Positions 10,500 to 33,264 of a stretch of DNA of 33,264 nucleotides are shown here, one piece after another (position 1 is the first letter of the stretch; each line of letters begins with the position of its first letter). Source of the DNA: Magnetococcales bacterium. GTDB lineage: Bacteria > Pseudomonadota > Magnetococcia > Magnetococcales > Magnetaquicoccaceae. The stretch lies in NCBI GenBank assembly GCA_015231295.1, contig JADGBU010000011.1, positions 1-33,264 on the forward strand, read 5' to 3'. The notes under the pieces are model-generated. The model saw only the letters and a list, made by a program, of their open reading frames with translations. It was not told the DNA's origin and did no database searches. The position numbers and the translations under genes were made by a program.

Positions 10500-10506
10500 T
10501 TGACAG

Positions 10507-10698
10507 ATGGCCACCATCACGGACACACCGATTCCGATTTCACCCGATGTCGGGTGGCATCTGACCAGCACCACTCCCCAAACGGTGGGCATACCGATTG
10601 CTCCAGTCGGGTGGCAATTCACCCGTTTTTCTGCCAACAGTTCAGGCTCTGCCTCTGGTGCCTGTTATTCCCCTGCCACCCGCTGGACGACCCCATAA
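10507..10698 (+). CDS. Small Thr/Pro-rich phage protein
   Basis: 63 residues, ATG 10507, eight bases after the previous stop, with weak AAAGGG upstream. The sequence is rich in Thr, Pro and Ser with a regular 'ISPDVGWHLTS...IAPVGWQFTRFS' duplication, so it may fold as a small beta unit. Its stop overlaps the nozzle start (TAATG, 10696-10700). The tight coupling and GC-rich wobble positions support a real gene; the function is unknown. Confidence 0.55.
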   Translation: MATITDTPIPISPDVGWHLTSTTPQTVGIPIAPVGWQFTRFSANSSGSASGACYSPATRWTTP

Positions 10699-12122
10699 TG
10701 CCTGTCAAGCTCATCACGAACCTGTCGGAACACGGAATCATCGTGGACCGGCCCGCGCATACCCTGCCCCCGAATGCCTTCAGCGGCGGGATGAACGTGC
10801 GCTTTGCCAACGGCACCGCCCAGAAGGTGCCGGGATACGTCGGGGTGCTGGGGACTCCAAACACCGCCCCCTGGTTCCTGCGGTACATGTACGACCAGTT
10901 GCTCTATGCCGGGGCGGCATCGGTGCATACGATCAAGGCCGGAACGCATTACGACATCACCCGCACAGCGGTCGAGGACGACCAGGTTTACGACGGCTCG
11001 TTCTCCGACCCGGACAGCACGAGGCCCTGGTGGACCACGGGAACGGGATGGAGCATCGGATCCGGCACGGCGACTTGTGACGGCTCCCAGACGGGGAGTT
11101 CCGCACTGGCCCAGAACGTGGGGGTGGTGAACACGGAAAGCTACACCGTGACCTTCACCGTCTCCGGGCATTCCGCCGGGGCGATCACTCCCAAGCTGGG
11201 GGGAACCGCCGGGACGGCCCGCTCTTCCAACGGCACCTTCACCGAGACCATCGTGGCCGGGAGTGCCGGGACATCCCTGGTGCTGGAGGGGGACGCCGAC
11301 TTCGCGGGATCGGTGACCGACATCCGCGTCACCAACAACGCGCCAGCCTATCATGCCACGGCGGATCAGGGATGGAACGGGGATGCCCTGGGCGGCATCG
11401 GGTATCTGAACAATGGCATCGATGCCCCCCAGATGTGGAACCCCATCATCGAGACCACCCGGCTCACCAACCTGACCAACTGGCCCGCCGGAATGCGGGT
11501 GCAGGCGTTGCGGTTCTTCAAGTCCATCCTGATCGGCCTGCACGTCACCAAGGGTGGCGTGGCCTACCCGCAGTTGATGGCCTGGTCCGATCCGGCGGAA
11601 CCAGGGCAGGTTCCCTCCTCATGGGCTATCGATGACCCCACCAAGCTCTCTGGCCAGATGACCGTGGATGAAACCGGGTCGGCCCTGGTGGAAGGGCAGC
11701 CGCTGCGCGATACCTTCGTGATCTACAAGGATGACCAGATCTGGGGAGCCTCCTTCATCGGTGCGCCCTACATTTTCCAGGTGGCGCCCATCGTCAAAAG
11801 CGTCGGGGTGCTGACCCAGAATTGCGTGACCATGGTGGATGGCACCCACTATGTGATGGGGAGAGACGACCTTTACGCCTTCGACGGCAACTCGGCCCGG
11901 TCGCTGCTGACCGGTAAAAACAAGTCCTGGTTCGAGCAAAGGGTTGACCCCACCCACAAAGACCGGTCGTTCGTGGCCGCCAACCGGACCGAACGGGAGG
12001 TGTGGTTTTGCTTCCCGGAACGGGGGGCCTCCTGGTGTACCTTGGCCCTGACCTACAACTACGCCTTCAACACCTGGGGCACACGCCAACTGCCGAATTT
12101 GAGCGCGATGGCCGAGGTGTGA
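10698..12122 (+). CDS. Tail nozzle/stabilisation protein (P22 gp10-like), N-terminal part
   Basis: 474 residues from ATG 10698, which overlaps the previous stop; the longer ORF from 10500 starts with unlikely His/Cys-rich sequence. The opening 'LPPNAFSGGMNVRFANGTAQKVPGY' is typical of gp10-like nozzle and stabilisation proteins that close the portal and form the short tail tube. Beta-propeller-like repeats follow (MRVQALRFFKSILIGLHV, DTFVIYKDDQIWGASF, MVDGTHYVMGRDDLYAFDG). Residues about 99-212 form an inserted jelly-roll-like domain resembling carbohydrate-binding modules (GWSIGSGTATC, SYTVTFTVSG, SNGTFTETIVAG). The protein stops at 'YNYAFNTWGTRQLPNLSAMAEV', where full-length relatives go on to a C-terminal beta domain; that domain is found in the two later genes. 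Confidence 0.7.
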   Translation: MPVKLITNLSEHGIIVDRPAHTLPPNAFSGGMNVRFANGTAQKVPGYVGVLGTPNTAPWFLRYMYDQLLYAGAASVHTIKAGTHYDITRTAVEDDQVYDGSFSDPDSTRPWWTTGTGWSIGSGTATCDGSQTGSSALAQNVGVVNTESYTVTFTVSGHSAGAITPKLGGTAGTARSSNGTFTETIVAGSAGTSLVLEGDADFAGSVTDIRVTNNAPAYHATADQGWNGDALGGIGYLNNGIDAPQMWNPIIETTRLTNLTNWPAGMRVQALRFFKSILIGLHVTKGGVAYPQLMAWSDPAEPGQVPSSWAIDDPTKLSGQMTVDETGSALVEGQPLRDTFVIYKDDQIWGASFIGAPYIFQVAPIVKSVGVLTQNCVTMVDGTHYVMGRDDLYAFDGNSARSLLTGKNKSWFEQRVDPTHKDRSFVAANRTEREVWFCFPERGASWCTLALTYNYAFNTWGTRQLPNLSAMAEV

Positions 12123-12166
12123 TGGCATCACATCCCAACCAACATTCCAACCAACGGAGTCATGAC

Positions 12167-12370
12167 ATGGACGATTTGCAAAACCGGTTCAGCTATCACC
12201 CCCCGAAACCTGGTCAAGCGGATCGGTATCAAAAGATCCGGGCCGCCGCGCTGGATTTTGCCCAGTTGATATGTGCGGAAACACCCAAAAGCCGTGAACA
12301 GGCTCTGGCCATCACCCATCTGGAGGATACGGTGATGTGGACCAACGCGGCCATCGCCCGCAACGAGTGA
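12167..12370 (+). CDS. acb2: Acb2-type anti-CBASS cyclic-nucleotide sponge
   Basis: 67 residues. ATG 12167 is chosen for the ACGGAG site 7 bases upstream and because the family begins here; ATG 12122 in frame overlaps the nozzle stop and would add 15 residues. The protein fits the Acb2/Tad1 hairpin family closely: N-terminal NRFSYHPPKPGQADRYQKIR, a helix 'ALDFAQLICAETPKSREQAL', and the C-terminal hallmark HLEDTVMWTNAAIARNE. Known members are small helical hexamers that bind and sequester cyclic di- and trinucleotide signals made by CBASS enzymes, so the Cap effectors are not activated. It sits between the two parts of the nozzle and would be expressed late with virion genes. Length is typical of short members. 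Confidence 0.85.
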   Translation: MDDLQNRFSYHPPKPGQADRYQKIRAAALDFAQLICAETPKSREQALAITHLEDTVMWTNAAIARNE

Positions 12371-12377
12371 TCCTCGC

Positions 12378-13937
12378 ATGGGAGGGATCGACTACGGACT
12401 TTCGCCCTGGCAGGAGGAGCAGATCGTTGGCGTCACCTCCCCATGCCTGTGCGGGGGATGTTCGATCGCGATCACCTCCACCGGGGACATGCATTCGGTC
12501 CGGGCGATCACGGATGGGGAGGTCCGCTATGCCCGATCCCTGGACGGCGGTGCCACCTGGACCGATGGCCAATTGGTGGAAAACGGGGTGCGCTGGTGGA
12601 ACCACTCGGTCCACATCATTGGCGACTCGTCGGACCGGCTCTATGTGTTCTTCGTGGACGCGGATGACACGTTGAGGGTCAAAAAGTCCACCGACAACGG
12701 AGACAGTTGGACACCGCACACCATCGGCTCCCCATCCGGGAAAACGTTGGGGAGACGATTGTGGGCGGTGGCGGATGGCTCCGATCTCCTCCACGTGGCC
12801 ATCCGGGATGACGAGGGGACGGTCTGGCACTCCAAATCCCTTGATCTGGGGGTTTCATGGGCCACCTGGAAGCAGGTATCCGGCCCCATCGTCCACCTGG
12901 ATTGGGCCACCAACATCCAAATCGCCGTGGATGGCGCGGGGAACCTGCACCTCGTTGCCGAGGCGATTGTGTCGGATGCCAGAACCACATTCTGGGCGAT
13001 GTCGCGGGATATCGGGGCCACCTGGACAGAGTGGAGCCAGGGATGGCATGCCGGGGCGGCTTGCGCGGCAACCATTGCCGCCAAGTGGACCAACAAGGTC
13101 TGTATCGTCTATGTCGAGGGCAACGACATCCGGTCGGCCAGATCGTCGAATGGGGGGACTGCCTGGACCCATGAAACGGTCATCACCGGAACGGCTGATT
13201 TCATTTTCGACCTGTGGTCTCCACCGGGCTTGATCGCCCTGGCGGATGGCGGTTGGCATGCCTTCGTCTATGTGGGCGGGGCGGTCCACAAAATCCTGAA
13301 TTTTTACAAAACCGCCTTCGACGCCCCCTGGACCATGGGGGAATACGTGATTGTGGGCGCGGAATGGAAAACCCCGGCGGACATCACTGCCGCCTCCAGG
13401 GGGGCGAACACGGTGGTGCAAGCGTCGGTCGGGGTATCCCCCACCCACGGCGTGGTGAAAATCACAGCCGGGACCGGAGCGAGGGGAACCTCTGGGGGGG
13501 ATTCGGCTCATGGTGACACGGCGACCATCCTGGCCACCGCCACCCGCACGAAAAGAGTCGATCCGGATCAGGTGGCGTCCGGGGTCGGGGACCATCTATA
13601 TCTGATGGATTGCGGCACCAGGGCCAACGGGAACGACCTGTCAATCAGCCTGGAGCGCACCGGGATCGTGCTCGAAGAAGGATCCATCGTGCAGGTGAGC
13701 GAGGTGTGGCCCGAGATGATCGGGGATAGTCCTCTTGATGTGCAGGTCGGGAGTCATTCCTCACCGGAGGGAGAAATCACCTGGAATACAGCGCAAACCT
13801 TCGACCCGATCATGAATGAGAAAGTGGATGTGCGGGTGACCGGGCGGTTCATCGCGATTCGCTTCATCGGGGCCAACGCATCGACCTGGGAGTTGGCCGG
13901 ATTTGCTCTGAAGTATGAAGTCAGGGGGAGATACTGA
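12378..13937 (+). CDS. Asp-box (BNR/sialidase-like) beta-propeller with nozzle-like C-terminal domain
   Basis: 519 residues. Five Asp-box motifs of the form SxDxGxxW occur at regular spacing: SLDGGATWT (54-62), STDNGDSWT (104-112), SLDLGVSWA (154), SRDIGATWT (209) and a degenerate SSNGGTAWT (256). This indicates a sialidase-like beta-propeller, usually glycan-binding or glycan-cleaving in phages. I could not find a convincing sialidase Arg triad, so binding is safer than catalysis. Residues about 393-519 form a separate beta domain ending 'RFIAIRFIGANASTWELAGF' and 'KYEVRGRY'. This domain matches the whole of the next gene and the usual C-terminal domain of gp10-like nozzles. The start has only a weak ribosome site, so translation may depend on readthrough from acb2. 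Confidence 0.72.
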   Translation: MGGIDYGLSPWQEEQIVGVTSPCLCGGCSIAITSTGDMHSVRAITDGEVRYARSLDGGATWTDGQLVENGVRWWNHSVHIIGDSSDRLYVFFVDADDTLRVKKSTDNGDSWTPHTIGSPSGKTLGRRLWAVADGSDLLHVAIRDDEGTVWHSKSLDLGVSWATWKQVSGPIVHLDWATNIQIAVDGAGNLHLVAEAIVSDARTTFWAMSRDIGATWTEWSQGWHAGAACAATIAAKWTNKVCIVYVEGNDIRSARSSNGGTAWTHETVITGTADFIFDLWSPPGLIALADGGWHAFVYVGGAVHKILNFYKTAFDAPWTMGEYVIVGAEWKTPADITAASRGANTVVQASVGVSPTHGVVKITAGTGARGTSGGDSAHGDTATILATATRTKRVDPDQVASGVGDHLYLMDCGTRANGNDLSISLERTGIVLEEGSIVQVSEVWPEMIGDSPLDVQVGSHSSPEGEITWNTAQTFDPIMNEKVDVRVTGRFIAIRFIGANASTWELAGFALKYEVRGRY

Positions 13938-18490: not shown

Positions 18491-19051
18491 ATGCTCATTG
18501 ATCTTTCAAGGCAAAAACTGTTCAATGCTATAGCTTACTTTGTTGATAACACTAAATGGTGTTACAAGACAAAGCTGTTTAAGCTTCTTTTCCTTTTGGA
18601 TTTTCAGCACTATCAGGAAACGGGCCGGTCTGTGACCGGATTACACTACAATGCGTGGCCGATGGGGCCTGTTCCTGTCTCACTTTTTGATGAAATCAAA
18701 TCCAAACAAACCGACCTAGCTCAACGCTTCACCATGCAAGAGAAAAAGCATGGCAAAGGAAATGCGCTGACCATCATCCCGCAATTTTCTTTCGATCCTG
18801 CGCTATTCTCAAGACGCGAATTGCGAATCATGGAGAGCCTGACACAGGAATTCCATACGGCATCTGCTGATCGAATGGTTGAGAAAACACATCTGGAGAA
18901 CCAACCATGGCACACAGTCTACCAGCAATGGGGGAAACAACAGGCGCTGATACCGTATGCTCTGGCCATCCGTGAATCAGAAAAGCAGGAGATGGGAAAT
19001 CTCATCCAGGATCGCAACGAATTTCTTGCGGAATTCGGGTCAAGGAAATGA
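18491..19051 (+). CDS. panA: Panacea (DUF4065/SocA-like) domain antitoxin
   Basis: 186 residues. The signature of the Panacea domain is clear near the N-terminus: YKTKLFKLLFLLDFQHYQET, then 'GRSVTGLHYNAWPMGPVP', and further on 'SFDPALFSRRELRIMESL', a typical C-terminal hallmark of this family. Panacea proteins act as antitoxins that neutralise many unrelated toxins encoded beside them, probably by direct binding. It overlaps the next gene by ATGA (19048-19051), the usual antitoxin-toxin arrangement. The DNA is clearly more AT-rich than the virion genes, consistent with acquisition by transfer. Length is normal for a stand-alone Panacea protein, with no DNA-binding domain attached. Confidence 0.82.
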   Translation: MLIDLSRQKLFNAIAYFVDNTKWCYKTKLFKLLFLLDFQHYQETGRSVTGLHYNAWPMGPVPVSLFDEIKSKQTDLAQRFTMQEKKHGKGNALTIIPQFSFDPALFSRRELRIMESLTQEFHTASADRMVEKTHLENQPWHTVYQQWGKQQALIPYALAIRESEKQEMGNLIQDRNEFLAEFGSRK

Positions 19052-19759: not shown

Positions 19760-22700
19760 ATGAGCACAGAGCAGACAAAATCGTGGGAGGAAATGTTCCC
19801 GGGGACGATCCAAATCGACCCACCAGACCAGTCGCGGACGTGGGGGGAATTTGCCCAGGATGCGGCGCTGTCGCTCGGGAAAGGGGTGGTGGGTCTAGGG
19901 GAAAGTGTGGTTGGCATGGGAGACCTGGCCACCGGGAACCGGGTTGGCCCGGCAATCGACGCTATCGGATCCGGGATTATGGCCCTGGCCGACAAAATGG
20001 GGGTGGCGAGTGCGCTGACCGGAGTGGAAGGTGCTGAAGGCGCGCCATCAGGGCCATGGTATGCGCCGGACAATCCGGTATTTTCACCCAAGCAAACAAA
20101 CGAATGGCTCTCATCACTGCAAAGCCCGCTGCAACAACGCAGTGATCGAGCGGTGCATGAGGCCATGCAGGATGGATTCATGCCGACCGTGAAGGCCGCC
20201 GTGATCAACCCCTCCAGCATCTTGGGAGGGGCCATCGAGGCTGTGCCAGGAATCGTGGGGATCACGGCTGGTGTGAGTGCCCATGCGGCCCGTCTGCTGG
20301 CGAGCCTGGGAGTGAAGGCCGGGACGGCGGAAGCGGCGGCCATCCTGAGCCACCCGAAGGTCATGGCCTCGCTGGCCATGGCATCCGGCATCGGTGAGGG
20401 GGCATTGCAGGCGGGGAGCCTCCAGGAGCAAGCCAGGGAGGAAGGACGGACGTGGGAGCAGTCGGCACCATACGCCATCGGATCCGGTCTGCTGGACGCC
20501 GCCATCACCATGGGAGCGGGGCGCATCCCGGGGCTGGGTGGCGACCTGGAGGCCAAAATGGTGGCGGGGGCACAAGGCGGTGTGCCGCTCAAGGATCGGG
20601 TGGTCAATATTGGCCGGAGCATCCTCGGCGAGGGGGTGGCCGAGGAGCTGCCGCAGTCGTATCAAGAGCAGGTGGCCCAGAATCTCGCAGAGGGCAAGCC
20701 GTGGGATGAAGGCGCGGCTGGTGCGGCTGGCATGGGCATGGTGACCGGCATGGCCATGGGCGGGTCCATGGGCGGGATTCACGAGGCCAGGGGGGCATTG
20801 TCGGGGCAGCCAGGGACGGGGACGGGGACGACGGATCAGACTGATCAACCCCCGCCGCCTGACGCTATGCCACCGGAGGCGCAACCGGATGCAACACAGT
20901 CACCGGATGGTCCACAACAAACCACTGGCGAACCCCCCATTGCACCCCCTGCCCCACCCCAAGATGACCAATTTGGGACAGAGGCGGCACAGGCGCAGGG
21001 CGGCATGATGCCATCACCCACTCCACCACCTCCACCCCCTGCACAACCCGTGGCCCCTGCCATTCAGATCGCACAGGCTCCGACACCGGCCCGGAAAATG
21101 GCAGAGGAGATTATGGCGTCCACCACGCCAGTCCAGACACCAATCTCCACGCCCGACCCGATGGCTATTAATCAGGCCACACCGGAGACCACACCCCCAT
21201 TGCCCCCATCCGAACCGATCCAGCCACAAGCCAAAACCATTCAGATGATCGAACAGGCGTTCGGGAGGCACGGAGTTTCCAGGACGCATCTGGAGCAAAT
21301 GTTGCGCAAACCCCTGGACAGCGCCACCGATGCCGACCTCAACGGGCTGAAAAAATTCAGTGACGCATTCGTGGAAGGATCGCTCAAGCCGGAGGAGGTT
21401 TTTCATGGATTGAGGGTCGAACAGACCCTGAAGAGTCGTCACTACGACGGGACCGCACTATACAACGACGATGGCCGGGCATGGCCCAGCAAACACACTG
21501 CCAGTCGTGAATCTGGCAGTGCCTGGACCACAGCACTCCGAGAGGCCGGGTATGACATCGGTATCGAGCAGCGTGGGAATGGGTGGGTGGTGACGGCGAC
21601 CTCGCCTGGGGAACTGCCGACCGATCAAATCAAGGCTCCGACGCCGGAACCGGCACCAGTTAGTGCAAAAAATGCAACAACTGAGTTGTCAACTGAGGCA
21701 ACGACTTCCGTCGCAATGCAGCCTGAACAATCAGCCGGGTATGATGACATCGGCATCAATGACATCGGTATCAGTGGGGCGCCTTTTGGAGGGAAGCGTT
21801 CCGCGACCATGGCGGCCAGGGCCAGGAAACTGACCAAAACCCATGTTCCGGTCCAGGTGGGGGAAAAGGAGTGGGTGCTGCGGCCCAAGACCGAATCGAC
21901 CCAGACACCACCGCCCGCATCAGAGACGGTACACGGTGAACTGCCGGGGGATGGAGTTTCAGCCAAACCGCACGCCGGTGCGCACATATTCGAGAACGAC
22001 CCGGATTGGGAGCCAGCCAAAAAGAATGGGGATATCGACGCCTCACGACGATTCGCGGAACGAACCTGGACCGCAGAAAACACGGAGGAACTCAAGGCGA
22101 GGCTGAAGGATCCGGCCAATACGATTTTCATCTCGCAACCGAGCAGCAGCGGCGGAAACGTTCTCCCGGTCGGACTGGCTGAGAAATTGGCAGCAAGCCT
22201 GGGGGCGAAATACCTGAACGGCGGGAAATACTTCCTCGCACAGCACACGGAAGAATCGAAAAGAGTTCCGAAAGATCGTCGCGTTTTCCATCCACGGGAT
22301 TACAAAATCATCGACCCCAATGCGTTGAGGAAGGAGACACAAGGCAAAGAGGTGGTGATCGTTGACGACATCTTCACCACGGGCGGTTCTGTTGGACAAC
22401 TCATTCGCGCCATGAAAACAGCCGGGATCGCGACGAAAGCGGCGGCAGGATATGTGGGGGATACCCGGTTGAAACCGGAACCGCAGATCATTTCCGCATT
22501 GCAAAGTGCCATCAGGAATGCCAAACTCGATTTCAAAGGAAAAGATCTGGCGGCTGTCCTGACACGGGCGGAAGTACAGGAAATCACGAGGTTGATCAAC
22601 GATGCGCGCACACCTGAAACCCGACAGACCCTTGCCGGAGAGCTACAAGGGCTACTCTCCAGGGGAGCTGTTGACTCTCCTGGACCAAATCAACAATCCC

Positions 22701-25700
22701 CCTCCTGGGGAATACGGAATCCCGAGGACGACTCCCAAGGAGAAGGTAGCCGCCATGCGGAGTATGATTTTGGAATACCGGATGACCCCGGAACTCAAAC
22801 GGCCTCCTGGGGAGAGGGAGATCGAGCCTCCCAATTTCCGGAACAGGTAAACAGCCCACCTGAATCCCAACAACCCGCGCCACCCAACCAATCAACGCCC
22901 TCCCCCAAAGAGGGCGTTGTCGTTTCTGGGGTGGCAATGCCCCCTACCCAGGAAGAGGAAGAGTCTGACGCGACGGATGCCGGGTCGCGTCAGGTTGGAA
23001 AAAATGCCGATGGCCATGAGGTGTTCGAGGACCAACGCGGCATCCGTTCTTTCGTCGAGAACGGGATCCGCAACACGGAGTCGGTTGCCGTGCGCCCTGG
23101 TGTCGGAATGGGTGTTGATCGTACCCGTGGACGCAAGCCGGAGTTCGTGACGGTTGATGAAAGCCATATGGAACAGAAAACGTCCGGAACCGAAGTTGGA
23201 ATTCCAAAACAGAATGAAATGGTGGTACAATCTGAGCCATCGTCAACCACCAACCCAAAAGGCCAGAACGATGAATATCGACCCGAACATGATCTTGATG
23301 CAACTCAAACAGGACGATCCGGAGGAGTACAAACGGCTGAAAAAAGAGGGGGGGGTGAAGGCCCTGGACGAGTACGTCCGGGAGAAGGAGCGGGAGATCA
23401 GGGATACCCTGCAATACATCACCCCCGTGAACCCGAACGCGGAGTATCCCAACCCGGCGGACGCGGTGATCGCCCGGGAACTGGCCATGAGCTGACCAAT
23501 CATCGGATCCTGCCTGGATCGCTGGAGGAGTCCCGTGGCCCCAAGACCAAGGCCCGGGACAATCTGGCCGCCGTCAAGCTGGTCAAGCAAATCGCTGCCG
23601 AAGGGCGTGCGGCCACTCCGGATGAACAAAAAAGCATCGCCAAATACGTGGGCTGGGGGGGATTGAGCGGGGTGTTCCCGAACCCCAAAGGGCAGATGAA
23701 TCCAGGACTGCGGGAAATCGGGGAAGAATTGCAACAGGTGCTGTCCGGAGACGAGTATGCCACGGCCCGCAAGTCAACCCAATACGCCCATTACACCTCG
23801 GAACCCGTGGTGCGCGCCATGTGGGGGGCGGTGGAGCGCATGGGGTTCAAGGGCGGCAAAGTGTTCGAGCCGGGCATGGGAACCGGAAACTTCGTCGGGA
23901 TGATGCCGGAGGCATTGACGGCAAAATCGGAATACACCGGCGTGGAGATGGATCCCATGACGGCCCGCATCGCCCAAACGCTCTATCCGCAGCACGACAT
24001 TCGGGAGGAGGATTTCACCAAGTACCAAGCCCCGAAAGAGACTTTCGACCTGGCCATCGGCAATCCACCCTTTGCCGACATCCCCATCAAGTCCGATCCG
24101 GCATACGCCAAGCACGCTTTCCTCCTGCACGACTATTTCTTCGCCAAGACCATGGATGCCCTGCGGCCCGGTGGCCTCCTGGCGTTCATCTCATCGGCGG
24201 GCACCCTGAACAAAATGGACCCCAAGGCGCGCAATCATCTGGCGGACCGGGCCGACCTGGTGGGTGCGATCCGTCTGCCGGGAAATGCCTTCGCCAAAAA
24301 TGCCGGAACCGAGGTGACGACGGACATCATCTTCCTGCGCAAACGCGAGGCCGGAGAAAAACCTGGGGATCGCACCTGGACCCAGACCGGCACATTCACC
24401 GGGCCGGACAAGACAGGAGAGATGAAGACCGGGTACAAAAACGCCTACTTCGACGCACACCCGGAGATGGTCCTGGGGGAAGAGGGGTTCTTCGACACCC
24501 TGCATCTCGGGCGGTACGCAGTGCGGGCACGGCCAGGGGATGATCTGGCCAAACTGCTGGAAGAGGCCATTCAACGGCTTCCGGCGGATGTGATGGCAGG
24601 TAAAAAGACGCCCAATGCGCGGGAAAAGCAAACCGACACCCGGGTTGCCGAAACCAAGAACGGATCCTTCTACATGAAGGACGGCGGGCTATTCCAGTTC
24701 GAGGATGGGCGCGGTGTGCCGGTGCGGACACGAGGACCGGGGGTGATCGGCGGCAGGACCAAAACGGAACAGGAGACGGTCAAACGATTGATCCCGATCC
24801 GGGATGCATTGCGGGCAGTATACGCTGCGGATGCAACCAACAACGCCCGGCAAGCGGCCAAAGCCAGAAAGGATCTGAACCGGCTGTACGATGCCTTCGT
24901 GGCGTCCCATGGCCCGATCAACAGAACGGTGGTCACCACCAGTAGGCCAACCCTGATTCAACAGGAAAAGGCCCGGAATGAAGCCCGCGAGCAGTCCGAA
25001 GGCTTTGACGAGGGGTCATTCGACCCGAACGAGATGCTGCTGGCGAATCGACCGCTCAAAGAGATTGCCGAGGCCCGGCAGAAGGCCAGGAATGAGGCCC
25101 TGGCCAAAAAACTGCCCTGGGATGAAGGATCGTTCAACCCGGAAGAAATGCCGGACAACGAGATTTTCCGCTATCCAAACATCGACCCCTTTGCCGACGA
25201 TCCGGAGAGCTACCGGCTGCGCGCCATTGAGGACTATGACCGAGACAGCGGAAAGGCGACCAAGCGACTGGTCTTCACGAAAAACCCGGTGGCCGTGGAA
25301 TCCGCACCAGCCATACGGTCCGTTGGGGATGCCCTGCTGCACGTCCTGAACAAAACCGGACAGGTGGATATCGGGGCCATCATGGAGGTGTCCGGCAAAA
25401 GCCGGGATGCGGTCATCGGGGAGTTGGGCGACAAGGTTTTCCCGTTGCCGGGCAGAAATGACAAGTGGGTGACTCGGGACGAATACCTGTCCGGTCGCGT
25501 CCGGACCAAACTCCAGGAGGCCAAAGAGGCGGCGGAACGGGATCCGGCATTTGAACGCAATGTGGAGGCCCTGGTCAAAGTTCAACCGGCCCCCCTTGCT
25601 CCGGAGGAGATCCGGTTGACCCTGGGCATGAACTGGATCCCGGAGAACATCATCGAGGATTTTGCCACCAAGGGACTCGGATTGAAGCATGCCTCGGTGA

Positions 25701-28700
25701 CGCAGATTGGTGGTCTGGGGGAGTGGCTGGTGCGAGGGGATGAACGCTCGGCAGAAGCCACCAGCGTGTGGGGGACACCCGAGAAATCAGCCATCGAACT
25801 ACTGCGTCATGCCCTCAACAAACAGGTGCCACGTATCCACCACCCGGGAGACGAACCCGGCAAGCAGGGGCCGCTGAATGTGGAAGCCACCGGGGCAGCG
25901 GTCGCCAAATTGCAGGAGATTCAAGAGAAGTTCACGGAATGGGCATCCGGGGTCGATGCGCTGTTCGTGCAGTACAACGAACTTTTCAACAACAACGTGG
26001 TGCCGAACCGGGTGGACGGGGAGTATCTGACCACGCCGGGCGTGCGAGTCGGCTGGGAGTGGCGGCCTCATCAGAAGTCGGTGATCGCCAGGATCATCAT
26101 GCGCGGCAACACCTACATGGGACACTGCGTCGGATCCGGCAAGACCTCGGCCATGATCGGCTCATCCATGGAGATGCGCCGCCTTGGACTGGTGAAGAAA
26201 CCCATGTTCGTGGTGCCGAACCACATGTTGATCCAGTTCACCAACGAATTCTATGACCAATACCCGACCGCCAAAATCATGGTGGCGGACGAGGAGAAAT
26301 TCCACACCTCCCGGCGCAAGCAATTCATTGCCGACGTGGCCAGCCAGGATCTGGACGCGGTGATCATCACCCATTCGGCTTTCGGCATGATCCCGATCAG
26401 TGACGCCTTCCAGAACACAATGCTGGAGGAGCAGGTCGAAATCTACCGCAATGCCATCACCGAGGCCGAAAACGAAAAAGGTGAGGATTCACGCATCACC
26501 ATCAAGCGGCTTGAAAAACAGGTGCAACGGCTGAAAGAACGCATTGCCGGCCAAAACAGCTTGAAGAAAGATCAGGTGTTCACCTTCGAGGAGATGGGGG
26601 TGGACTTCCTGTATGTGGACGAAGCCCACGAGTTCCGGAAACTCTCTTTCCCCACCAAACAGCAATTGAAGGGGATCGACCCGGAGGGGTCCAAGAAGGC
26701 GTGGGATCTGTTCACCAAGACCCGCTATCTGGAGACCGTGCGCCCCGGTCGCAACCTGGTCATGGCATCCGGAACGCCGGTCACCAACACCATGGGGGAA
26801 CTATTCAACCTGTCACGATTCATCCAGCCCAAAGAACTGGAACAGGTTGGGTTGAATCATTTCGATGACTGGTCCTCGATGTTCGGCACCGTCAGCGCCG
26901 ATCAGGAGCAGACCCCGACGGGTGGGTATCAGTTGGTGACCCGGTTCAACCGCTTCGTCAATGTGGCGGACCTGTCCCGCATGGTGCGGCAAAACATGGA
27001 TGTGGTGACCTCCACCCAATTGGGGGAGTTCGTGACACGCCCGCAAAACGAACGCAACCTCCACGTCCTGCCACGCCTGCCCATCCTGCAATCGTTCCAG
27101 AAGCATTTGAGCGAGAGATGGGAAAAAATCAAAAACCGTCACGGCAAACCGAAACCCGGGGATGACATCATCCTGAACATCATCGGGGATGGCCGCAAAG
27201 CATCGTTCGACATGCGGTTGATCGACAAATCTGCCCCTTCCGATCCGGACAGCAAACTGAACACCATCATCCGCAACGTCCATAGCATCTGGCAGAAAAC
27301 CGCCAAACACGAGTTCTTCGACCCGAAGACCGGGAAATCCAAAGGGAGAGGACCAGCATCCCAGATCATCTTCGCTGACCAGGGGGTGAATCCGCTCAAC
27401 GGTTTTCACGCCTATGGGTGGATGGTGCGTGAATTGGTGCGCATGGGGGTGCCCAGAGACCAGATCGCCGTGATCAACGACTTCAAGAGCCATTCCGACA
27501 AGCAGAAGCTGTTCGCCAAGGTCAAAACGGGTGCAGTGCGCATCCTGATCGGGTCCACCGCGAAACTCGGCACCGGGACCAATGTGCAAGACCGCCTATT
27601 CGCCATCCACAATGCGGACCCGCAGTGGTATCCGGCAGCGGATGAACAGCGGGTCGGACGCATCGTCCGCCAGGGCAACTTCAACCGGCATGTCGAGGTT
27701 CACGACTATTCGGTGAAAGGCACCTACGATGCCACCATGTGGAAGATGATGGCCAAAAAGGCCCGGTTCATCGAGGAGTTCTTCCGGGGAGATCCGAACC
27801 TGCGCGAGATGGAAGACCTGGGCGAAGCCAGCATGTACGAACAGGCCAGCGGCATGACCGTGACCGATGACCGGATCCTGCGGCTTGTGACCCTGAAGCA
27901 GGAGTTGAGCGACGCCAAGCGCAAAAAGGTCTCGCATGGAAAAGACCAAGCCCGCGTCCGGGGGAACATTTCCTCCCTATCTGAAGAGATCGATGCGTGG
28001 GGTGAAAAAATCCCGTTGCTCGAAAAGGATCTGGCCCAACGGGTGGATGTGTCCGGGGAGAAATTCAAGGCGGTCATCAACGGCGAAACCCTGACCAAGC
28101 GGGCGGATGTGGGGCAGACGATCCTGCATACCTTCGATACAGCGCCGGCGGGCAAAGACATCAACAAAAAAATCGGCACGATGGGCGGCTTCGACCTACA
28201 CATGCGAATCGCGCACAAGCAGGACATGACCGGAAAATACGATGTGAAGATGATCACCCTTGAACGCCACGGCGGGCCAAGGGAGGTGCGTATCGACAAG
28301 TTCTCCACCGATACCGGTATCGTCCAGTCCCTCGAATACGCCATCCGGACCATCGATCAGGAATTGACCAAAGCCAAGGCCAGGATCAAGGATGCCCGGA
28401 CAGAGTTGGAGGGGTACAAGAAACGGGTGGGAACGCCTTTTGCCGGTCAGGAGAAGATCAACACCCTTCAGGATCAAGTCAACGCACTGGAGGCGGATCT
28501 GATCGCCCATCCGGAAAAGCAAGAGGAGGATGACACGCCGGTTGAAACGTGGAAGCCACCTGCTGACGTAGGCAAAACCGATGAATCACAAGAACCCGCC
28601 AATGGCGGGTTTTTTGATGGGCAGATCAAAGAATCACGACCCCCCACCCCTGCCCCGTCCACCCTGTTCACCGCGTCGTCTCAGCAGGCACTGTCCGATC

Positions 28701-31700
28701 ACCTGGTCAAGGTCGGTCTGGATGGAAAGATCGCGGTCAAGGTGGTGGAGGCATTGCGTGGTGGCGTGGAGCGAAACGGAGCGGCGGGAACCTACCAGAA
28801 CCGGTTGATCGAAATCGCCGCCACGCACGGCAACAAGATGGCGGCCTTGAACCATGAGATCATCCACGCCCTGCGCGATCTTGGGGTGTTGCGCCCTCTG
28901 GAATGGACGGTGCTGAAACGGCATGTGGAAGCTGACGAGGCCCTGATGGAAAGCGTGGCCGAGCGCTACCCGGAACTGACCCATGACGAGCAGGTGGAAG
29001 AAGCCATCGCCGACCGGTTCGCGGAATGGATGGACACCCCTGCCCCCAAGGGATTCATCGAAAAGGCGTTCACCCGTTCCAAGGCGTTCATCGAGGCGGT
29101 GGGCAATTGGCTGCGAGGAAACGGTTTCAGAAGCGCACGGGAGGTGTTCAAGGACATCGCATCCGGAGAGGTAGGGAAACGGCACTCCGTGCGACACCCG
29201 GAGACAGGACGCTATGCCCCTGGCAAGGCCAAGGAGATGCGCGTGTTCGGGCGGGAAATCACCAAGCGTGGCCTTTCCGTCTGGGCCAAGGATCTGCTCA
29301 CCCAAAGCAAGCCGACCCTCTTGCAGTTCCTGGGAGGACGGCAGTTGACCGAGATGTACGCCAGAATCTTCCCGAACGACGGAGAGCATTTGAAGGAGTT
29401 GACCGGACTCATTCAGTCCCAAGATGCCGACATGAACAAATTGGCCCACGAGGCCAGCAAGGTAACGGATGATTGGGAAAAGCTTCCCAAAAATGAATCG
29501 GACAACCTGACCGAGGTGATGCACTCCGGGACGGTCTGGGAGTATCACCCGGATGAACCGTTCGATGACAACGATCTGATCCAGGCACGGTTGATGGCCA
29601 AGATGAGCAACCGGGCGGTGACGGCCTTCCAGCGTGGACACAACCTCAATGATCTATCCCCGGCGGAACAACAGGACTTCGACAAACTGACCGCTGCGGT
29701 CCATCACGGGAAAATGGTGCGCGAGGTGGTTGGCTTCGCCCTGCAAAACGGGATGACCAAGCAACAGATCCTCTCCACCCTGGCCAAAAATGCGGACCGC
29801 TTACCCATTCCAACGGACAAGGCCGCAGCGTTGGAATCCTACAATACCCTGAGCGGTGAAGAGAAAATCGAATACCGGACGGCTGGGGCGGCAGGATATG
29901 GCCGTGCTGTCCGGAAACTGGATGCTTTCAAGAATGGGCACAAGATTGACAACCTGAACCAGGAGGAAAAAGCGGAATACGACCGGCTGACGGCAGCCCT
30001 GACCAAGCACTCCAAACAGGAACGCTTCGAGTCCGAGCGGTCCAGGGAGGCCGCCAAGGGGATCGACCTGTACCAGCAGTTGAGCGAGGAGGCAAAGAAG
30101 GTCTATCGGTCAGCCAGGGAGATGTATGCCAAGCGGTATGCCGATGTGCGCAGCTCTCTGGAGGAGCAAATCAAAGACAACAGCACCATCAAGCCAAAGG
30201 AGGCACAACGGCTGATCGCCTCCTTGAGGCTGAAATTCGAGAAGAACATGGTCAGTCGCGGCCCCTACTTCCCCTTGAGCCGGTTCGGCAAATACACGGT
30301 CTTTGCCAGCGGCAGAGACCTGGAGACCTTCTTCGGAATGGCCGAAACCCCTGCCGAACAACGGGAACTGGTCCAGGCGTTGCGGGAAAGCGGATACCAG
30401 ATCATCGAGACCGGATTCAACGGCGAGTTCACCCGGAAGCAACGGGAGGTGGCCCCGCAATTCGTCAAGGAGGTAATCACGATCCTGGATGGGGACATCT
30501 TCGACAGCAAGGCGGTCAAGGAGTCCAAGGAGTTGGAGCGGTCCCGAGAGGCCATGAAGGATGCGGTCTGGCAGATGTATCTGGAAACCATGCCGCAATT
30601 CAGCATCCGCAAAAAGTTCATCCACCGGAAGAAAACCGCCGGGTGGTCTCAAGACGCCTTGCGCGCCTTTGCCCAGCACATGTTCCACGCCTCCAAACAG
30701 ATTGCCCGCATGCGCTACGGCTACAAAATGCAAAACGAACTGGATGCCATGACGGAAGAGGTGACAGGCCGCAAAACGGTCGTCAAGGAGGTGGAAATCG
30801 ATGGCAAGACCTTCCCGAAGGTGATGACGGAACGGATGAAACCGGAGGAGATGGTGACTCCGGAAAACAAGGTGCTGGCCGGACAAGTTCTGGATGAGAT
30901 GGTCAAGCGGCACGAGCAGGTAATGAATCCTCCCGGATCCGGATTGGCGAACCGACTGAATGCCGCCGGGTTCCTGCTCTATCTGGGTCTCTCCCCCGCA
31001 TCCGGGCTGGTCAACCTGTTGCAGACCCCCATGGTGGCCATCCCGATCATCGGGGCACGCTACGGCAACCTCAAGACCTGGAAGGTCTACCGGGACGTGG
31101 CCATGGAGTACAAAAAAAAGGCCGGTTTCCTGACCGACAATCCCCTCTTGAGTGAAGACGAGCGGAAGTTGATGAAAAAACTGTCCGAGGATGGGACCAT
31201 CGATGTGACCCAGACTCACGACTTGGCGGGCTTGGGGGGCGATGAAGGGTTGAACCCGTTGCGTGGGAAGACGCGCCAGTTCATGCAAATGGCCGGGTGG
31301 TTCTTCCATGCGGCGGAACGGATCAACCGGGAAAGCACAGCCTTGATGGTCTATCGCCTGGCCAGGGGGAAAGGGATGAACCATGAAGAGGCACTGGTGG
31401 AGGTCAAGGATCTGGTTCACAAAACCCACTTCGACTATTCGGCCAACAACCGGCCCCGGATCATGCGCGGGGATGTGATGCGGGTGATCACGCAGTTCAA
31501 GCAGTACGGTCAGAATACGGCCTACACCCTGGCCAGGGCTGCCTACCTGTCCGTGAAGGGGCAATCCCCTGAAGAGATCCGGGAAGCCCGTCACCAACTC
31601 ACATCCCTGCTCCTGACCCATTTCATGGCCGCCGGAGTGGCGGGGTTGCCCCTGGTGTGGGTGGTGCCCATGGTCATGAGCGCAGTGGCCGGGGCGTTCG

Positions 31701-32464
31701 GGGACGATGACGAGTATTACGATCCGGAGGCGTATTTCCGGAACCTGTTGAACGACTCGATAGGCCAACTCCCCGGCCAAATGATTGCCAAGGGTCCGGT
31801 GAGCGCCTTGACCGGATTGGACTTCGCGTCGCGCCTGGGGCTGGCGGATCTGTTCTGGAGGTCCACCGATCAGCACATGGAGGGACGAGACGCCTTTGCC
31901 CACGGACTGACACAGATCCTCGGCCCGATGGTGGGATACGTCGGACAGGTGTTTGCCGCATCACAAGTGGCCGGAGACGGCAATCCGGAGCGCGCCTTGG
32001 AAATGGTGGTGCCAAAGGCGGTCCGGGACGTGATGAAGGCCGGTCGCTATGTGGCCGATGGTGGGGTGATCACCATGAAGGGAGACCGGGTGTTGGAGGA
32101 CCAACTTTCCGCAACCGAGTTGATGGCCCAAGCCATTGGGTTCTCCCCCTTGCGGGTGAACGAGCAATATTCCGCCAACACGACGATCCGCAATGCCGAA
32201 CGGTTCGTCAACGACCGGAGGCAGAAACTCCTGAACCAGTATGCCGAAGCGTGGAAACAACAGGATCAGGAAGGGATGGAATCAGCCAAGGAGGCGTTCA
32301 TGGCTTTCAACCAGGAGCATCCGCGCTATGCCATCACCGGGGACACTGTGATGCACTCCTTGAAAGCGCGGGAGCAAATGCGCCGGCGTGCGGTCGGTGG
32401 GATGGTGGTCAATCCGAAGTTGGCGGAACTGAGAGAATTGGGGCGGTATGGGGCTGGTGGATAA
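19760..32464 (+). CDS. Giant polyvalent protein (PRTase, N6-adenine methylase, SNF2-like helicase, zincin, LPD38)
   Basis: 4,234 residues; ATG 19760 follows GGAGGG. Order: residues 1-345, a Gly/Ala-rich hydrophobic head (AIEAVPGIVGITAG; GVAEELPQSYQEQVAQN) as in ejected virion proteins; 350-460 Pro-rich; about 740-950 phosphoribosyltransferase-like, with EVVIVDDIFTTGGSVG (864-879) as PRPP loop; 1268-1530 DNA adenine methylase with VFEPGMGTGNF (1368-1378) and NPPF (1435-1438); about 2100-2720 SNF2-type helicase with Walker A VGSGKT (2124-2129), DEAH (2287-2290) and motif VI DEQRVGRIVRQ (2628-2638); about 3010-3110 zincin with HEIIH (3032-3036) and EEAIAD (3080-3085); then helical LPD-type sequence and an LPD38-like end (about 3840-4050) with a membrane-like helix near 3950-3980. 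This matches the DarB-like polyvalent proteins of phages, thought to be injected with DNA to block restriction. In two stretches (about 948-1031 and 1172-1246) coding signal lies in the +1 frame. Confidence 0.88.
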   Translation: MSTEQTKSWEEMFPGTIQIDPPDQSRTWGEFAQDAALSLGKGVVGLGESVVGMGDLATGNRVGPAIDAIGSGIMALADKMGVASALTGVEGAEGAPSGPWYAPDNPVFSPKQTNEWLSSLQSPLQQRSDRAVHEAMQDGFMPTVKAAVINPSSILGGAIEAVPGIVGITAGVSAHAARLLASLGVKAGTAEAAAILSHPKVMASLAMASGIGEGALQAGSLQEQAREEGRTWEQSAPYAIGSGLLDAAITMGAGRIPGLGGDLEAKMVAGAQGGVPLKDRVVNIGRSILGEGVAEELPQSYQEQVAQNLAEGKPWDEGAAGAAGMGMVTGMAMGGSMGGIHEARGALSGQPGTGTGTTDQTDQPPPPDAMPPEAQPDATQSPDGPQQTTGEPPIAPPAPPQDDQFGTEAAQAQGGMMPSPTPPPPPPAQPVAPAIQIAQAPTPARKMAEEIMASTTPVQTPISTPDPMAINQATPETTPPLPPSEPIQPQAKTIQMIEQAFGRHGVSRTHLEQMLRKPLDSATDADLNGLKKFSDAFVEGSLKPEEVFHGLRVEQTLKSRHYDGTALYNDDGRAWPSKHTASRESGSAWTTALREAGYDIGIEQRGNGWVVTATSPGELPTDQIKAPTPEPAPVSAKNATTELSTEATTSVAMQPEQSAGYDDIGINDIGISGAPFGGKRSATMAARARKLTKTHVPVQVGEKEWVLRPKTESTQTPPPASETVHGELPGDGVSAKPHAGAHIFENDPDWEPAKKNGDIDASRRFAERTWTAENTEELKARLKDPANTIFISQPSSSGGNVLPVGLAEKLAASLGAKYLNGGKYFLAQHTEESKRVPKDRRVFHPRDYKIIDPNALRKETQGKEVVIVDDIFTTGGSVGQLIRAMKTAGIATKAAAGYVGDTRLKPEPQIISALQSAIRNAKLDFKGKDLAAVLTRAEVQEITRLINDARTPETRQTLAGELQGLLSRGAVDSPGPNQQSPSWGIRNPEDDSQGEGSRHAEYDFGIPDDPGTQTASWGEGDRASQFPEQVNSPPESQQPAPPNQSTPSPKEGVVVSGVAMPPTQEEEESDATDAGSRQVGKNADGHEVFEDQRGIRSFVENGIRNTESVAVRPGVGMGVDRTRGRKPEFVTVDESHMEQKTSGTEVGIPKQNEMVVQSEPSSTTNPKGQNDEYRPEHDLDATQTGRSGGVQTAEKRGGGEGPGRVRPGEGAGDQGYPAIHHPREPERGVSQPGGRGDRPGTGHELTNHRILPGSLEESRGPKTKARDNLAAVKLVKQIAAEGRAATPDEQKSIAKYVGWGGLSGVFPNPKGQMNPGLREIGEELQQVLSGDEYATARKSTQYAHYTSEPVVRAMWGAVERMGFKGGKVFEPGMGTGNFVGMMPEALTAKSEYTGVEMDPMTARIAQTLYPQHDIREEDFTKYQAPKETFDLAIGNPPFADIPIKSDPAYAKHAFLLHDYFFAKTMDALRPGGLLAFISSAGTLNKMDPKARNHLADRADLVGAIRLPGNAFAKNAGTEVTTDIIFLRKREAGEKPGDRTWTQTGTFTGPDKTGEMKTGYKNAYFDAHPEMVLGEEGFFDTLHLGRYAVRARPGDDLAKLLEEAIQRLPADVMAGKKTPNAREKQTDTRVAETKNGSFYMKDGGLFQFEDGRGVPVRTRGPGVIGGRTKTEQETVKRLIPIRDALRAVYAADATNNARQAAKARKDLNRLYDAFVASHGPINRTVVTTSRPTLIQQEKARNEAREQSEGFDEGSFDPNEMLLANRPLKEIAEARQKARNEALAKKLPWDEGSFNPEEMPDNEIFRYPNIDPFADDPESYRLRAIEDYDRDSGKATKRLVFTKNPVAVESAPAIRSVGDALLHVLNKTGQVDIGAIMEVSGKSRDAVIGELGDKVFPLPGRNDKWVTRDEYLSGRVRTKLQEAKEAAERDPAFERNVEALVKVQPAPLAPEEIRLTLGMNWIPENIIEDFATKGLGLKHASVTQIGGLGEWLVRGDERSAEATSVWGTPEKSAIELLRHALNKQVPRIHHPGDEPGKQGPLNVEATGAAVAKLQEIQEKFTEWASGVDALFVQYNELFNNNVVPNRVDGEYLTTPGVRVGWEWRPHQKSVIARIIMRGNTYMGHCVGSGKTSAMIGSSMEMRRLGLVKKPMFVVPNHMLIQFTNEFYDQYPTAKIMVADEEKFHTSRRKQFIADVASQDLDAVIITHSAFGMIPISDAFQNTMLEEQVEIYRNAITEAENEKGEDSRITIKRLEKQVQRLKERIAGQNSLKKDQVFTFEEMGVDFLYVDEAHEFRKLSFPTKQQLKGIDPEGSKKAWDLFTKTRYLETVRPGRNLVMASGTPVTNTMGELFNLSRFIQPKELEQVGLNHFDDWSSMFGTVSADQEQTPTGGYQLVTRFNRFVNVADLSRMVRQNMDVVTSTQLGEFVTRPQNERNLHVLPRLPILQSFQKHLSERWEKIKNRHGKPKPGDDIILNIIGDGRKASFDMRLIDKSAPSDPDSKLNTIIRNVHSIWQKTAKHEFFDPKTGKSKGRGPASQIIFADQGVNPLNGFHAYGWMVRELVRMGVPRDQIAVINDFKSHSDKQKLFAKVKTGAVRILIGSTAKLGTGTNVQDRLFAIHNADPQWYPAADEQRVGRIVRQGNFNRHVEVHDYSVKGTYDATMWKMMAKKARFIEEFFRGDPNLREMEDLGEASMYEQASGMTVTDDRILRLVTLKQELSDAKRKKVSHGKDQARVRGNISSLSEEIDAWGEKIPLLEKDLAQRVDVSGEKFKAVINGETLTKRADVGQTILHTFDTAPAGKDINKKIGTMGGFDLHMRIAHKQDMTGKYDVKMITLERHGGPREVRIDKFSTDTGIVQSLEYAIRTIDQELTKAKARIKDARTELEGYKKRVGTPFAGQEKINTLQDQVNALEADLIAHPEKQEEDDTPVETWKPPADVGKTDESQEPANGGFFDGQIKESRPPTPAPSTLFTASSQQALSDHLVKVGLDGKIAVKVVEALRGGVERNGAAGTYQNRLIEIAATHGNKMAALNHEIIHALRDLGVLRPLEWTVLKRHVEADEALMESVAERYPELTHDEQVEEAIADRFAEWMDTPAPKGFIEKAFTRSKAFIEAVGNWLRGNGFRSAREVFKDIASGEVGKRHSVRHPETGRYAPGKAKEMRVFGREITKRGLSVWAKDLLTQSKPTLLQFLGGRQLTEMYARIFPNDGEHLKELTGLIQSQDADMNKLAHEASKVTDDWEKLPKNESDNLTEVMHSGTVWEYHPDEPFDDNDLIQARLMAKMSNRAVTAFQRGHNLNDLSPAEQQDFDKLTAAVHHGKMVREVVGFALQNGMTKQQILSTLAKNADRLPIPTDKAAALESYNTLSGEEKIEYRTAGAAGYGRAVRKLDAFKNGHKIDNLNQEEKAEYDRLTAALTKHSKQERFESERSREAAKGIDLYQQLSEEAKKVYRSAREMYAKRYADVRSSLEEQIKDNSTIKPKEAQRLIASLRLKFEKNMVSRGPYFPLSRFGKYTVFASGRDLETFFGMAETPAEQRELVQALRESGYQIIETGFNGEFTRKQREVAPQFVKEVITILDGDIFDSKAVKESKELERSREAMKDAVWQMYLETMPQFSIRKKFIHRKKTAGWSQDALRAFAQHMFHASKQIARMRYGYKMQNELDAMTEEVTGRKTVVKEVEIDGKTFPKVMTERMKPEEMVTPENKVLAGQVLDEMVKRHEQVMNPPGSGLANRLNAAGFLLYLGLSPASGLVNLLQTPMVAIPIIGARYGNLKTWKVYRDVAMEYKKKAGFLTDNPLLSEDERKLMKKLSEDGTIDVTQTHDLAGLGGDEGLNPLRGKTRQFMQMAGWFFHAAERINRESTALMVYRLARGKGMNHEEALVEVKDLVHKTHFDYSANNRPRIMRGDVMRVITQFKQYGQNTAYTLARAAYLSVKGQSPEEIREARHQLTSLLLTHFMAAGVAGLPLVWVVPMVMSAVAGAFGDDDEYYDPEAYFRNLLNDSIGQLPGQMIAKGPVSALTGLDFASRLGLADLFWRSTDQHMEGRDAFAHGLTQILGPMVGYVGQVFAASQVAGDGNPERALEMVVPKAVRDVMKAGRYVADGGVITMKGDRVLEDQLSATELMAQAIGFSPLRVNEQYSANTTIRNAERFVNDRRQKLLNQYAEAWKQQDQEGMESAKEAFMAFNQEHPRYAITGDTVMHSLKAREQMRRRAVGGMVVNPKLAELRELGRYGAGG
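22602..22850 (+). CDS. Overlapping +1-frame ORF inside the giant gene, first
   Basis: 82 codons in the +1 frame relative to the giant ORF. From about 22610 the third codon positions are GC-rich in this frame and not in the giant frame, so the selected protein here appears to be this one. It looks like a real protein: 'SYKGYSPGELLTLLDQINN', 'PKEKVAAMRSMILEYRM' and a basic tail. CACGAGG (22584-22590) may serve as a weak ribosome site, although its spacing to ATG 22602 (11 bases) is long. Forty-four bases after its TAA comes a terminator-like hairpin (22894-22918). It could be a separate small gene, or the true end of the upstream part reached by frameshift. The giant frame reads through it as Gly/Ser/Pro-rich linker. 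Confidence 0.45.
   Translation: MRAHLKPDRPLPESYKGYSPGELLTLLDQINNPPPGEYGIPRTTPKEKVAAMRSMILEYRMTPELKRPPGEREIEPPNFRNR
22894..22926 (+). terminator. Terminator-like hairpin inside the giant ORF (weak U-run)
   Basis: Perfect 9-bp stem AACGCCCTC (22894-22902) / GAGGGCGTT (22910-22918), 7-base loop, followed by GTCGTTTC. It is translated in the giant frame as a linker (NQSTPSPKEGVVVSG). ATG 22937 follows in the giant frame and could once have begun a separate gene. The T-run is short, so termination may be partial. Confidence 0.5.
23271..23495 (+). CDS. Overlapping +1-frame ORF inside the giant gene, second
   Basis: 74 codons from ATG 23271, again +1 to the giant frame, with AAAAGG about 9 bases upstream and a -10-like TACAAT at 23225-23230. 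Third positions are very GC-rich in this frame, while in the giant frame they are the AT-rich second positions of these codons. The protein is a normal charged helical one: 'MILMQLKQDDPEEYKRLKKE', 'KALDEYVREKEREIRDTLQY', then 'NPNAEYPNPADAVIARELAM'. The giant frame in the same stretch is Gly/Arg/Pro-rich and looks like out-of-frame translation. This is stronger evidence than for the first nested ORF. Function unknown. Confidence 0.55.
   Translation: MNIDPNMILMQLKQDDPEEYKRLKKEGGVKALDEYVREKEREIRDTLQYITPVNPNAEYPNPADAVIARELAMS
28593..28616 (+). terminator. Intrinsic-terminator sequence inside the giant ORF
   Basis: Stem AACCCGCC (28593-28600) / GGCGGGTT (28604-28611), 3-base loop, six T's (28610-28615). 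It is identical in stem and T-run to the terminator at 19704-19736. It is in frame and encodes EPANGGFFDG in the linker between the helicase-associated coiled coil and the zincin domain. By sequence it is the strongest terminator in the window, yet translation continues through it for 3.8 kb. Confidence 0.7.
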
Positions 32465-32479
32465 CCGGTGGAGGGAGAG

Positions 32480-32677
32480 ATGGATTTCTTGAAACCATGC
32501 CCCTACTGCGGGCATGACGATGCAATCGTGGTCCATATCAACGCGCCGGAACAAAGCGGCGTGCCGCCTGACGAATGGCGCGTTGCCTGTGAACGTCCGC
32601 AATGCGGGGCGCAGGGACCGAAAGCGGAAGAAAGGAAGCGGGCTGTGTGGGGATGGAACATCCGGGCCAGCCGATGA
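32480..32677 (+). CDS. Lar-like restriction-alleviation family zinc-ribbon protein
   Basis: 65 residues, ATG 32480 with GGAGG at 32470-32474; a GTG at 32468 would place the ribosome site inside the gene. It follows the Lar family pattern: an N-terminal LKPCPYCGHDDAIVV, 'WRVACERPQCGAQGP', then an Ala-rich helix leading to 'AVWGWNIRASR'. The four Cys (CPYC and CERPQC) would bind one zinc. Lar of the Rac prophage reduces restriction by type I enzymes; for most family members the role is not tested. It is placed directly after the polyvalent gene, which also carries restriction-related domains, so an anti-restriction role is plausible. Confidence 0.78.
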   Translation: MDFLKPCPYCGHDDAIVVHINAPEQSGVPPDEWRVACERPQCGAQGPKAEERKRAVWGWNIRASR

Positions 32678-32680: not shown

Positions 32681-32711
32681 GGCAACTGTCAAGCCATTCT
32701 TGACAGTTGCC
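32681..32711 (+). promoter_or_regulatory. Perfect 13-bp inverted repeat between small genes
   Basis: GGCAACTGTCAAG (32681-32693) / CTTGACAGTTGCC (32699-32711) with a 5-base loop. It starts three bases after the zinc-ribbon stop codon. No T-run follows, so it could be a terminator of unusual type, an mRNA end-protecting hairpin or a protein-binding palindrome. Confidence 0.55.
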
Positions 32712-32751: not shown

Positions 32752-33006
32752 ATGTTGGAAAATGCGGATGTGCCGGGAGCGATTCGTGAGGAATTGGATT
32801 TGCACTCATGGAATGCAATTCGCGGCTATTGCAAACAGCGGGTGCAGGAGTTGGTGGAGGTTGCCGACATGCTGGCGGTGCGCGGATTTGATGTGGACGA
32901 TGTGTCCGGGGTGACGGGACTGGCCAGGGCCACCAAAATGCTGGCCGAGCAATTCAAGGACCGGACGACGGTGATGGATGGGGATTTGCGGTTGGATGAT
33001 TGCTGA
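32752..33006 (+). CDS. Small helical protein next to the attachment region
   Basis: 84 residues from ATG 32752 with GGAGG 6 bases upstream; the in-frame start at 32707 lies within the preceding hairpin. Helical and acidic (about 17 Asp/Glu), including 'WNAIRGYCKQRVQELVEVADML' and 'GFDVDDVSGVTGLARATKML'. No helix-turn-helix or basic surface is obvious, so it does not look like a typical excisionase, although it is the last gene before the att region. Function unknown. Confidence 0.6.
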   Translation: MLENADVPGAIREELDLHSWNAIRGYCKQRVQELVEVADMLAVRGFDVDDVSGVTGLARATKMLAEQFKDRTTVMDGDLRLDDC

Positions 33007-33018
33007 ATGGCCAATCCG

Positions 33019-33084
33019 ATGCACCTGAAGTGCACTCCAGGTGCACCTCAGGTGCACTGGAGGTGCATTTGTGATGCACCACGA
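33019..33084 (+). repeat. Six tandem 11-bp repeats (RTGCAY iterons)
   Basis: RTGCAY cores begin at 33019, 33030, 33041, 33052, 33063 and 33074, exactly 11 bp apart: ATGCACCTGAA, GTGCACTCCAG, GTGCACCTCAG, GTGCACTGGAG, GTGCATTTGTG and ATGCACCACGA. The core GTGCAC is itself palindromic. Spacing of about one helical turn puts all sites on one face of the DNA, as for cooperative binding of an excisionase, repressor or replication initiator. Confidence 0.85.
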
Positions 33085-33187
33085 CAATTCACGACACATC
33101 ACGTTGCCTTTTTGAAGACGGGATAAGTGCATAATTTCAATAGGCAATATCAAGTCACGACAAGGCATGACAAGACACGACAATTCA
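33080..33187 (+). repeat. Two clusters of 10-bp-spaced CACGACA repeats (probable integrase arm sites)
   Basis: CACGACA occurs at 33080, 33090, 33156 and 33176, with near matches at 33100 (CACGTTG) and 33166 (CATGACA), so there are two groups of three at 10-bp steps. The 12-mer CACGACAATTCA is exact at 33080-33091 and 33176-33187. An AT-rich spacer separates the groups. They lie within 130 bp of the tRNA-derived core, as arm-type sites do for tyrosine integrases. Confidence 0.7.
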
Positions 33188-33210
33188 TAATAATTTGCAT
33201 GAACATGAAA

Positions 33211-33255
33211 CTCTTAATCAGCGGGCCATAAGTTCGAGTCTTATACGACCCACCA
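33211..33255 (+). other. Attachment site core: 3' half of a tRNA-Lys(CUU) gene
   Basis: The sequence from 33211 matches a tRNA-Lys from the anticodon loop (CTCTTAA, anticodon CTT) through the variable region to a T arm (ATAAG-TTCGAGT-CTTAT), the 3' acceptor strand ACGACCC, discriminator A and encoded CCA (33253-33255). The upstream bases (33180-33210) do not pair with the anticodon stem, and no 5' half (GGGTCGT...) is present, so this is a tRNA fragment. That is what a phage-borne attP or a prophage end looks like. The integrase is not in the window. Confidence 0.8.
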
Positions 33256-33264
33256 ATCCAATCT

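Follow-up and report, generated by a model that had tools for sequence, protein, structure and literature searches.

Helix-phased RTGCAY repeats beside a tRNA-Lys att core in a Magnetococcales prophage are probably integrase arm-type sites

The stretch of DNA analysed here (the window, 33,264 nucleotides) makes up the whole of contig C53 in a draft Magnetococcales genome of 353 contigs, and carries the late genes of a podovirus-like prophage, including an SU10-type portal and adaptor, head proteins and a 4234-aa polyvalent protein. The last is encoded by a single ORF (19760-32464) with LPD39, N6-methylase and helicase C-terminal matches and is read as a giant polyvalent phage protein. Also in the late region are a Panacea-domain (SocA-like) gene (18491-19051) and a Lar-like restriction alleviation gene (32468-32677), which are likely to be defence or counter-defence cargo. 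The Lar-like gene is separated from the last ORF by a stretch that includes, at 32681-32711, an inverted repeat with perfect 13-bp arms (GGCAACTGTCAAG/CTTGACAGTTGCC) and a 5-nt loop. The product of that last ORF (32752-33006) does not stand out as an excisionase (RDF), since it is acidic (10 K+R vs 17 D+E) and has no family match, and no relatives of it were found among viral contigs; the early region of the phage lies outside the window. Relatives of the portal were found in seven genomes at 46-49% identity, and at 71% on contig C214 of the same genome, where positions 1-12652 (L044, G000) represent a second, related phage with its integrase upstream of terminase and portal.

The contig ends in the att core (Table 1), which was recognised as part of tRNA-Lys(CTT) via an intact gene in a same-genus genome, and the phage's own integrase and P' arm lie beyond the contig end. 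Since the 54-bp core recurs in contig C159 of the same genome, and a further contig, C242, begins within the 5' half of the tRNA, tRNA-Lys serves as a hotspot at which several elements have integrated. C159 (L005, G000) also has a 2.2-kb remnant at 7763-10012, flanked by two tRNA-Lys cores and carrying a broken integrase as well as a pair of GTGCAC repeats; these are tandem elements at one tRNA hotspot.

Table 1. Features between the last phage gene and the contig end (RDF, excisionase).
Feature	Position	Strand	Remarks
Last phage gene before the array	32752..33006	+	84-aa acidic protein, no family match; no obvious DNA-binding RDF
Six RTGCAY repeats, 11-bp steps	33019..33084	+	Proposed P-arm integrase arm-type array; from layout and both-arm logic
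Core 1, ATGCAC	33019	+	
Core 2, GTGCAC	33030	+	
Core 3, GTGCAC	33041	+	
Core 4, GTGCAC	33052	+	
Core 5, GTGCAT	33063	+	
Core 6, ATGCAC	33074	+	
Distal CACGACA cluster, 10-bp steps	33080..33103	+	Copies at 33080 and 33090, and a third, degenerate one (CACGTTG) at 33100; proposed RDF/excisionase sites
Core-proximal CACGACA/CATGACA cluster, 10-bp steps	33151..33190	+	Copies at 33156, 33166 and 33176; proposed RDF/excisionase sites
att core	33211..33264	+	3' half of tRNA-Lys(CTT), 54 bp common to C159; contig end

Between the last phage ORF and the tRNA 3' end, within ~250 bp of the att core, lie six direct repeats with RTGCAY cores in exact 11-bp steps. A preliminary description had claimed six helix-phased repeats that run straight into CACGACA with no gene over them, and these claims were borne out: the steps show zero slip, the last unit meets CACGACA at 33080, and the + strand is free of genes after 33006, the only overlapping frame being a 125-aa antisense ORF (32806-33183) that looks mechanical. 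The full palindrome GTGCAC is present in 3/6 cores and RTGCAY (also RRTGCAYY) fits all six. Triple RTGCAY at 11 bp gave four overlapping matches in the window vs none in 100 dinucleotide shuffles, and chance is excluded as the source of the array. No other 6-mer was repeated at least five times at any spacing of 7-30 bp in the 33-kb window. GTGCAC occurs at three sites in the whole window, vs ~10 expected from shuffles, and all three are inside the array. The CACGACA/CATGACA copies form two clusters with a spacing of 10 rather than 11 bp within each; searches for CACGACA pairs elsewhere in relatives gave single matches and no clusters.

Palindromic repeats at the end of a late operon might work at the RNA level, by forming a strong hairpin or a terminator, and the RNA of 33007-33120 does fold stably (-46.6 kcal/mol, z -4.66). 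Helix-phased palindromes fold well regardless, however, a hairpin has no need of an exact 11-bp phase and no terminator-like site was found on the + strand at the array, so that this explanation is most improbable.

The clearest guide to the array came from elements at tRNA-Lys in related genomes, which encode an integrase with an Arm-DNA-bind_3 domain. Reading from the integrase towards the tRNA, the order in these relatives is an outer 11-bp direct repeat, an inner 10-bp repeat and the core, and the outer word reappears as a pair beyond the tRNA and its terminator. Among 15 regions upstream of one integrase family from the host's order (Magnetococcales), a 6-mer was repeated at 11 bp in 14 and at 10 bp in 12 (shuffle mean ~1, maximum 5), and the remaining spacings between 7 and 19 bp were seen in 0 to 5 regions, near the shuffle range. 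The inner word is nearly constant (GTTTCCG) and is found on one side of the core only, whereas the outer word, in 2-4 copies, varies by element (GGGTACT, TGCTTACT, TGATTGCT, GGAACCCA) and is found on both sides. Both arms of the same element carry it in G011 and G013, with 12-bp steps on the P' arm, and a near-identical 11-bp word is shared by C159 (P) and G006 (P'). GTTTCCG at 10-bp steps between the 11-bp repeats and the core was observed upstream of integrases at L005, L110, L111, L113, L114, L116-L119, L122 and L123, and is a candidate RDF site common to many elements. Pairs at 11 bp also occur upstream of two unrelated integrases of the window's own genome, that of C214, on the contig with the related portal, and that of C184, beside tRNA-Met. 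It was proposed earlier that the palindromic core implies binding by a dimer; the palindrome itself stands for half of the cores, but dimer binding does not follow, because related elements have 11-bp words (TGCTTACT, TGGGTTCC) that lack a palindrome.

Comparison of 13 integrases of the host's order, using the similarity of the N-terminal arm-binding and catalytic domains and 5000 label permutations, revealed that the 11-bp word goes with the arm-binding domain. Integrases with the same word had arm domains more alike than their catalytic domains (0.66 vs 0.58), while between integrases with different words the relation was reversed (0.55 vs 0.60). The observed difference was reached in none of the 5000 permutations, a figure that comes from 13 integrases with shared ancestry not fully removed, though the contrast with the catalytic domain makes a simple lineage effect less likely. 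With its occurrence on both arms and its covariation with the arm domain, the 11-bp repeat of the relatives can be taken as an integrase arm-type site, and the 10-bp repeat fits the position of an excisionase site since it occurs on one arm only, between arm sites and core. It also became apparent that elements at the same tRNA-Lys differ in their 11-bp word because their integrases differ, which makes the refutation proposed at the outset, absence of the array from phages using the same site, ill-posed.

A similar arrangement is known from well-studied systems. The arm-type sites of lambda are direct repeats that flank the core att, lie outside the accessory-protein sites and are read by the N-terminal domain of the integrase, and the Xis sites lie between the distal arm sites and the core (PMC4880445). 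Like the lambda arm sites (P1, P2, P'1-3), those predicted in the window would place 11-bp repeats outermost, then 10-bp repeats and, innermost, a tRNA core; unlike them, the candidate sites form six uninterrupted, helix-phased copies of a palindromic hexamer on one arm. Candidate arm repeats containing TGCACA(A) have been described in the attP of Oenococcus oeni prophages (IntA-IntF), where they are matched to different integrase N-termini and occur beside tRNA genes, tRNA-Lys among them, in 2-4 copies per arm (PMC8074189), although the bacteria and integrases differ and the Oenococcus copies are fewer.

Direct repeats with a 10-11 bp spacing can also mark excisionase sites (PMC7498355), and the earlier suggestion that the array binds excisionase has to be weighed against this background. 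Polymers of small proteins on the six repeats would then bend the P arm, with CACGACA serving as integrase arms. In attP, Apl of phage 186 binds five direct copies of a 6-bp word, spaced at 10-11 bp, RDF sites are generally one-turn direct repeats (PMC7498355), and six copies on a single arm resemble RDF sites more than they do sets of 2-4 arm sites. Repeats about one helical turn apart are, however, provided by GTGCAC (11 bp) and CACGACA (10 bp) alike, and it is CACGACA that comes nearest to the Apl operators in spacing and one-sidedness. The GTGCAC array, unlike those operators, is outermost, with the CACGACA clusters on its inner side and not the reverse; the genome has GTGCAC repeats on the P' side of tRNA-Lys as well, and G152 has them on both arms. 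As the 11-bp word of the relatives is both-armed and tracks the integrase arm domain, which the inner 10-bp word does not, the roles were probably assigned the wrong way round, and excisionase binding to the array is unlikely.

The RTGCAY array is therefore read as the outer set, and CACGACA as the RDF site, because registers and order match those of the relatives, 11 bp outside and 10 bp inside. By this analogy the array probably comprises the outer (P-arm) integrase arm-type sites of the prophage at tRNA-Lys(CTT), and CACGACA is likely to be the excisionase (RDF) site; we infer that the phage's own integrase is what reads GTGCAC. In such a scheme the N-terminal domain of the phage tyrosine integrase would bind the RTGCAY repeats, all facing the same side of the helix at intervals of one turn, and the catalytic part of the enzyme would hold the tRNA core ~130-190 bp from the array. 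Excisionase on the CACGACA repeats, with their 10-bp steps, would bend the arm and set the direction, and the missing P' arm would be expected to carry a second, shorter GTGCAC set. The more general proposal of a control element belonging to the att site is supported.

The only other 11-bp GTGCAC pair in the genome is that of C159, on the P' side of tRNA-Lys directly past the tRNA terminator, and it supports the arm-type reading because the P' pair of the relatives sits at the same place. A caveat is that the window has six copies on one arm vs 2-4 in the relatives. The integrase of G006, an 82% relative of the C159 integrase fragment that lies beside GTGCAC repeats, is without GTGCAC upstream and speaks against the reading, with the consequence that the GTGCAC binder could not be named. 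The analogy also crosses integrase families, since the 10-bp words differ (CACGACA in the window, GTTTCCG in the tested family), and the phage's integrase probably belongs to a family other than that of the 13 tested. The array was absent from the four portal relatives with fetched contigs and from C214, and among 150 related genomes the only triple GTGCAC was the window's own copy, so that the word is specific to the window's element. Annotated phages searched with the P-arm DNA gave chance matches only.

Arrays of GTGCAC do occur more widely. At L033, L146, L180 and L152 they occupy the interval from a tRNA 3' end to an integrase gene, the tRNA-Ser genes at L146 and L180 being found by ARAGORN and the contig of L033 opening with a tRNA-Ser-like 3' end, and similar arrays adjoin integrases in Planctomycetes and Propionibacteriaceae. 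In the Propionibacteriaceae genome of L152 a second GTGCAC pair adjoins an intact tRNA-Met on another contig with a 20-bp core in common, from which it follows that GTGCAC is on both arms there. Three-copy 11-bp arrays are also frequent in Rhodobacteraceae (L145-L224; Leisingera, Loktanella, Lentibacter, Tateyamaria), with several per genome, as a dispersed chromosomal repeat. A tRNA was near the array in 3/105 cases vs 1/62 control windows, counts that are too small to use.

Triple GTGCAC at 11 bp was also found in 25 viral contigs, but enrichment of the word itself is modest, as control scans gave 5 matches for CACGTG at 11 bp and 12 for GTGCAC at 10 bp. In 15 of the 25 the array lies within or next to a gene for replication initiation, a helicase loader or a primase, and such arrays (L011-L032) are candidate origins. 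The window's array could by the same token be an iteron-type phage replication origin that stands beside attP by chance. It shares the hexamer and 11-bp steps with the repeats at DnaD-like loaders and primases, but those sit in or beside replication genes and not beside an att core. Such an origin role, also raised in the preliminary description, is very unlikely and is disfavoured by three observations: no initiator family was found among the scanned window proteins, including the products of the genes just before the array; at 36-45% AT the array is not AT-rich and offers no AT-rich unwinding region; and in the genome the word is found again on the opposite arm of this att site. Function is told by position and not by the GTGCAC word alone. 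There is a slender chance that 11-bp GTGCAC is a recurrent word read in helical phase both by unrelated integrases of several phyla and by phage replication initiators, in which case control elements may be shared or exchanged between att arms and origins.

As an arm-type array, the GTGCAC repeats are a known sort of site, fairly ordinary but unusually long and regular. What is of wider use is the spacing rule, an 11-bp arm word on both arms and a 10-bp accessory word on one, by which both sets of sites may be readable from sequence alone for unstudied integrases and which links the arm word, in a testable way, to residues of the arm domain.
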